Source: Thermodesulfovibrionia bacterium
Lineage (GTDB): Bacteria > Nitrospirota > Thermodesulfovibrionia > UBA6902
Reading direction: 5' to 3'
Assembly (NCBI GenBank): GCA_947259645.1
Contig: CAMYND010000021.1
Coordinates: 1 to 46,266 of the forward strand
Length of the DNA stretch: 46,266 bases
Both the position numbers and the translations under genes were made by a program. Position 1 is the stretch's first letter. Every line of letters begins with the position of its first letter. Under the pieces are notes generated by a model, which did not search any database, was not told where the DNA came from, and worked only from the letters and a program-made list of their open reading frames with translations. This document shows positions 17,799-18,633 of this stretch, one piece after another.

Positions 17799-17994
17799 TT
17801 TTTACTTCCATCGTTAGTCTGTACTCTGCAGGCCGATTTTGTGGCCACACTATATACATCGGATTCTCTGCGCAAAATATTTAGATTTCAGTGGCCATAT
17901 CCTCTATTTTTCTGTCTGCAATTGTGCGCCCCCCTTTCCATGTATGATGTTTTGTAATACAATGGTACATAGGGGAAAACAGAGGGAGGAGTTT

Positions 17995-18633
17995 ATGGTT
18001 CGGAACGTTTTCTGCTTTTTTTGCATAGCTCTTGCAATAGGCTGCGTCGAAGTTGATGAAACAGCCTTTTCTCCGGTGCTGAAGGAAGAAGAGAATACAT
18101 ACATAGTGGATAGGACAGGAGATCGATGGGATATTAGCCAGGCCCTCTCTCTCGGGTTCAAGCCTGACAAATTTCAGTATGGTCTCGGCAAGGATACATT
18201 TACTCCCCTCGATGACACGTATTTGAGCAGTGACAGCAGAAATGTGCCGGAAAGTCTCAGGGTAATCGGGGTGGCAGAGGGGAATGATTCGCGTGCCTAT
18301 TCAGTATCGCGACTGAAACGTCATGAGATTTCAAACAGCATGCTCAGCAATAAACCCGTGGCAGTTGGATATTGACCACTTGCTGATTTAGCGGCTGTGT
18401 ACAGCCGCACGATTGATGACCAGGTTTTGACGATTGTGCCATCGGGTTGGACGTACGATAATACCTTCGTGCTCTACGATCGTGAAACAGAAACGCTCTG
18501 GTTTCCGTATAAAAAGGGGCTCAAGGGGATTCAGGGCAGATACTACAACCGCTGGCTTCCCAAACTGGATTCTGAAGACACGACCTGGGGCAGGTGGCTG
18601 AACAGGTATCCCGACACACAGATTTTAAAGTAG
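17995..18633 (+). CDS. DUF3179 family candidate selenoprotein (in-frame TGA read as Sec127)
   Basis: Two frames, 17995-18372 and 18376-18633, are separated only by TGA at 18373-18375 and continue in the same phase. Together they form one DUF3179 domain: VIGVAEGNDSRAYSVSRLKRHEISN, then KPVAVGY-U-PLADLAAVYSRT, then TFVLYDRETETLWFP and TTWGRWLNRYPDTQIL. The family normally has Cys in the YCPL motif, exactly where the TGA lies; its second Cys is Ala here. A hairpin at 18391-18408 has SECIS features. With Sec the protein has 212 residues. GGGAGGA precedes ATG 17995. The N terminus is a short hydrophobic signal ending in IGC, a weak lipobox. A nonsense mutation is the alternative. Confidence 0.75.
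18391..18408 (+). promoter_or_regulatory. Putative bacterial SECIS hairpin
   Basis: GCGGCTG (18391-18397) and CAGCCGC (18402-18408) form a perfect 7-bp stem with the four-base loop TGTA. The loop begins 23 bases after the TGA, and its second base is G, as bacterial SECIS elements require near the start of the apical loop. The stem lies inside the coding frame (AAVYSR). No T-run follows, so it is not a normal terminator. Confidence 0.65.

Follow-up and report, generated by a model that had tools for sequence, protein, structure and literature searches.

A selenoprotein of the DUF3179 family (PF11376), with the motif UxxC/T, is already listed in two reviews, which credit it to the 2007 study of an Olavius algarvensis symbiont by Zhang and Gladyshev (PMC9312934, PMC13188914). 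Sec-containing DUF3179 is therefore known, as far as these lists describe it, and the suggestion in an earlier note on the present DNA that such a protein might be undescribed has to be given up. The gene analysed here lies in a window of 46,266 nucleotides (the whole stretch of DNA that was analysed). It shares with the published type the Pfam family, the location of Sec at the conserved Cys and Sec-rich hosts of the deltaproteobacterial type, but differs from it at the third residue after Sec (+3): the listed motif has C or T at this position, whereas the window protein has Ala, and all 45 genes of its short form (the window gene and 44 others) encode V, A, Q, S or I and never C or T. UxxC/T fits part of the long-form Sec proteins found here and not the short clade, so that the latter looks distinct from the listed form, though the accessions cited in the reviews could themselves be of the short form.

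The long-form Cys DUF3179 proteins (CPLC), found for example in other Nitrospirota families, have the same core with invariant R, H-E, N, C/U-P-L, S-G, Y, D and L-W. They differ from the window protein by a Cys instead of Sec at the site and usually a second Cys (CxxC), by open frames of about 300-500 aa and by hosts that mostly have no SelA.

An interrupted DUF3179 reading frame

Translation of the frame revealed a sole internal stop, the TGA at 18373-18375. When this codon was read through, the Pfam scan gave a DUF3179 match of 103.6 bits (cut-off 27) that runs across the TGA position, with coding continuing in phase behind it. The TGA stands at the invariant Cys of the family and the motif reads VGY-U-PLADLAAVYSR. 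The earlier claims of a single interruption, of in-phase coding beyond it and of a YCPL-type motif turned into Y-U-PLA are thus all borne out. No NCBIfam model matched the window protein. The features of the locus are collected in Table 1.

Table 1. Features of the DUF3179 gene in the window.
Feature	Positions	Strand	Basis
Shine-Dalgarno-like GGGAGGAG, upstream of ATG 17995	17984-17991	+	sequence
DUF3179 selenoprotein gene (predicted), 212 residues, Sec = residue 127, stop TAG 18631-18633	17995-18633	+	translation; PF11376 E=1.7e-29
Signal sequence with lipobox LAIGC (Cys17), predicted lipoprotein anchor	17995-18045	+	translation, by inspection; GC likewise placed in most Nitrospirota orthologues
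DUF3179 core domain, residues 82-212	18238-18630	+	Pfam scan
In-frame UGA, proposed Sec codon (residue 127)	18373-18375	+	TGA in 45/45 short-form genes; Cys/TGA in 106/106 DUF3179 sequences
SECIS hairpin GCGGCUG / loop UGUA / CAGCCGC, inside the coding frame	18391-18408	+	folds; synonymous conservation; pair counts with compensatory changes

The N-terminal sequence suggests that the window protein is likely to be exported and probably lipid-anchored at Cys17. Across the short clade the lipobox pattern was present in only 7 of 42 N-termini and lipid anchoring is therefore not general in it. The window gene is the only DUF3179 match of its genome. Its neighbours in the window (carbonic anhydrase, SH3, aspartyl protease, PilZ, thymidylate kinase, a DNA polymerase III subunit, PSP1 and a tRNA synthetase) were inspected and hint at no function.

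Sec machinery of the host

The source genome (3.4 Mb, 99.6% complete) was searched for the Sec machinery, and all of its parts were present. A tRNA-Sec with anticodon UCA was detected at 72.4 bits (gathering threshold 47), SelA (615 bits) and SelB (369 bits) are encoded by adjacent genes on contig 11, and SelD was found at 323 bits. The selD gene (L017 1420-2514) has a UGA of its own, in GGUAAK, so that SelD itself appears as a selenoprotein (VKAGGUAAKL).

SelA was also found in 39 of the 43 genomes that host the short-form relatives. The genomes with a Sec gene in which SelA was not found are G422 (the same as G029; L067), G427, G432 and G441, and these absences are most likely assembly gaps. 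In a sample of 396 genomes of the phylum Nitrospirota, SelA was present in 5 of 6 genomes with a TGA-type DUF3179 versus 1 of 36 with a Cys-type one (Fisher p=4e-5, a statistic that ignores phylogeny).

A short clade with TGA at the conserved codon

In the 61 near genomes, the window's own included, each of the nine DUF3179 matches is interrupted by a TGA, always at this codon. Two search patterns, one of them written with Cys so that Cys forms were not disfavoured, were run against 84,980 species genomes and yielded 43 relatives, all with TGA at the codon and none with Cys. Their hosts belong to Nitrospirota and Desulfobacterota, with one Gemmatimonadota MAG, and two cultivated Desulfoluna species, D. 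spongiiphila and D. butyratoxydans, carry the short-form gene. Altogether TGA occupies the site in 45/45 short-form genes and Cys in none, which gives the window gene the TGA-bearing relatives that had been looked for, and the protein is conserved on both sides of the TGA in every one of them. In 43 of these 45 proteins the DUF3179 domain has no other Cys. A tree of 102 DUF3179 sequences, built after removal of the Sec/Cys column, grouped the short Sec proteins as one clade on a long branch (support 100/100). From these sequences the short clade is apparently an obligate-Sec, single-domain branch, separate within DUF3179.

At the scale of the family, every one of the 106 aligned DUF3179 cores has either TGA or Cys at the site, Cys being the residue of the homologues that lack TGA (CPLC, CPLT, CPTTG); the alignment of homologues at the TGA thus gave the expected Cys. 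TGA at the same Cys was also seen in long-form genes (L060 (736), L108, L110-L118, L126-L128, L131 and L134), with UPLT, UPLA, UPLS or UPLC and hairpin-like sequences such as GGGAGU-GGUCU-ACUCCC, judged by eye. These genes come from the phylum of Desulfoluna, with one in the window's own class (L060). The +3 residue of the long-form Sec proteins is A in 6, T in 5, S in 4 and C in 1, and in Cys-type DUF3179 it is C or T. The TGA-type long forms are probably the published UxxC/T selenoprotein type.

A conserved hairpin behind the TGA

Folding reproduced exactly the hairpin described in the earlier note, with a stem of 7 bp (18391-18397 / 18402-18408) and the loop UGUA (18398-18401); the hairpin begins 15 nt and its loop 22 nt after the TGA. 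Its minimum free energy is -13.7 kcal/mol, and 4 of 200 shuffled sequences folded equally well, a modest result when taken alone. When the same peptide was recoded at random with synonymous codons, 7/7 pairs arose in only 0.6% of the sequences and an equally good fold in 0.05%.

The conserved hairpin sought in the TGA-bearing relatives was found among the 45 short-form genes. At codons +6 to +10 after the TGA, synonymous-level identity was observed in 79-100% of sequence pairs; it was 47% at codon +11 and roughly 20-65% at other conserved positions. All seven stem pairs are formed in 35/45 genes. The outer pair varies between G-C, A-U and U-A, so that a change on one side is compensated on the other; these pair counts are drawn from related sequences and therefore are not all independent events. 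The hairpin is conserved beyond the protein sequence across the 45 homologues, far beyond chance.

As in bacterial SECIS elements, a small in-frame stem-loop lies closely 3' of the UGA, with the loop 22 nt behind it and a G at the first or second position of the apical loop. The difference lies in GCGGCUGUGUACAGCCGC, whose sequence is unusually strictly conserved across phyla.

Decoding of the UGA

These results are in agreement with the proposal that the gene encodes a Sec-containing DUF3179 protein: the Sec machinery, the presence of TGA or Cys in 106/106 sequences and the conserved hairpin all back it, and we hold with high confidence that the window gene encodes a selenoprotein of this family. 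In the proposed mechanism, the UGA and the SECIS hairpin would recruit SelB with Sec-tRNA-Sec, and Sec would be put in at residue 127 in place of the invariant Cys of the family. Judged from sequence, Sec insertion at this residue in vivo is very likely because the machinery is present, TGA is found in 45/45 genes, the hairpin codons are frozen and SelA accompanies the gene in 39/43 hosts.

A single-base stop in a draft assembly could also be a sequencing error, or the gene a decaying pseudogene, and such errors seemingly occur in DUF3179: in L044, from a family in which SelA was not detected, a TGA takes the place of the Trp in ESLWSQ, and in L065 / L026 a stop replaces the conserved Tyr after TFVL, each a probable base error or pseudogene. 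A lone base error at the window codon is nevertheless implausible, because this very codon is TGA in 44 other genes, which also share the hairpin, and the protein is conserved on both flanks; we regard this reading as having almost no probability. Standard annotation would read the UGA as an ordinary stop and the product as a truncated protein of 126 residues. This is very improbable, if a little less so, given that the DUF3179 core straddles the UGA and its 3' half is conserved as protein in 45/45 genes, that the synonymous freezing downstream fits a SECIS, and that SelA, SelB, SelD and tRNA-Sec are all encoded in the genome. The 44 TGA relatives, the conserved 3' half and the SECIS conservation leave practically no room for a sequencing error, a pseudogene or an ordinary stop. 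TGA recoding is known in some lineages and the codon might be read as another residue, e.g. Trp, via a suppressor tRNA or an altered code; the tRNA-Sec with anticodon UCA, the conserved SECIS-like hairpin and the Cys found at the homologous position of relatives without TGA speak against it, and the chance that we allow it is negligible.

Possible role of the selenol

On the reading of the window protein as a selenoprotein, it would be exported, probably lipid-anchored at Cys17. The alignment contains the invariant residues R89, H110, E111, N114, U127, P128, L129, S150, G151, Y154, D162, L168 and W169, which suggests that the selenol sits within an active site or a ligand site; the selenol would be part of a conserved set with Arg89, His110, Glu111, Asn114, Ser150, Tyr154, Asp162 and Trp169. 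Since the mature domain has no other Cys, a one-selenol centre in the cell envelope is most likely, with an external thiol or a partner protein to resolve the selenol, or with the selenol as a metal or electrophile ligand. The lack of a further Cys makes an internal UxxC redox couple less probable and favours a one-selenol mechanism that draws on an external reductant, or else metal binding.

The window protein thus differs from UxxC thioredoxin-like redox proteins by the absence of a resolving Cys in its domain, and its model gave no confident match to a thioredoxin fold or other solved structure. The AlphaFold model is a confident one, with a pLDDT of 90.9 and a pTM of 0.83. A PDB sequence search with the window protein returned no credible relative, and Foldseek of the model against the PDB gave no credible match (best E 0.19, TM about 0.1-0.3); no functional inference is therefore drawn from structure. 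The model suggests a DUF3179 fold without a solved representative.

Redox chemistry of the selenol in the envelope is a plausible role, proposed by analogy with other Sec/Cys pairs, and the one that we somewhat favour for the window protein. The protein could also be a selenoprotein of envelope metal resistance in which Sec binds a metal or mercury and has no part in redox catalysis. In locus L076 (5667-8936), a short Sec-DUF3179 gene lies beside genes for a cytochrome P460-like protein, MerR, a MerT-HMA protein and a MerA-like reductase, other short-form loci are near pyridine nucleotide-disulfide reductases, and a second Cys for a disulfide is absent from the domain. The mer neighbourhood occurs at this one locus only, however, and most loci, the window included, have no such context. 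We therefore consider metal resistance unlikely though not negligible, and grant a role of the selenol as a metal or electrophile ligand in general about the same low probability.

A promoter scan yielded nothing informative. When gene neighbourhoods were clustered, even the commonest neighbour groups reached only 8 of the 44 loci. The groups are single-linkage clusters with approximate counts: ECF sigma factor in 8, response-regulator/kinase in 8, pyridine nucleotide-disulfide reductase in 7 and DUF547-containing proteins in 5. In L076, L085, L090, L095 and L097 the ECF sigma factor gene is found about 0.4-1.2 kb upstream on the same strand, and in some loci a small gene, possibly for an anti-sigma factor, lies between it and the Sec-DUF3179 gene. 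Stress regulation is possible for the short Sec-DUF3179 genes with an upstream ECF sigma factor.

In a bolder reading, to which we lean slightly less than to its opposite, the short clade would be an unrecognised obligate selenoprotein family, never with Cys at the site, without another Cys in the domain, possibly of unsolved fold and with a Sec-specific chemistry possibly essential to an envelope function. The findings add a well-supported clade to the prokaryotic selenoproteome, whose proteins standard annotation would cut short, and they point towards the invariant Cys/Sec as the functional residue of the widespread uncharacterised DUF3179 family. With a single Sec and no other chalcogen, such a domain would offer a clean test of why selenium is kept where relatives use Cys.
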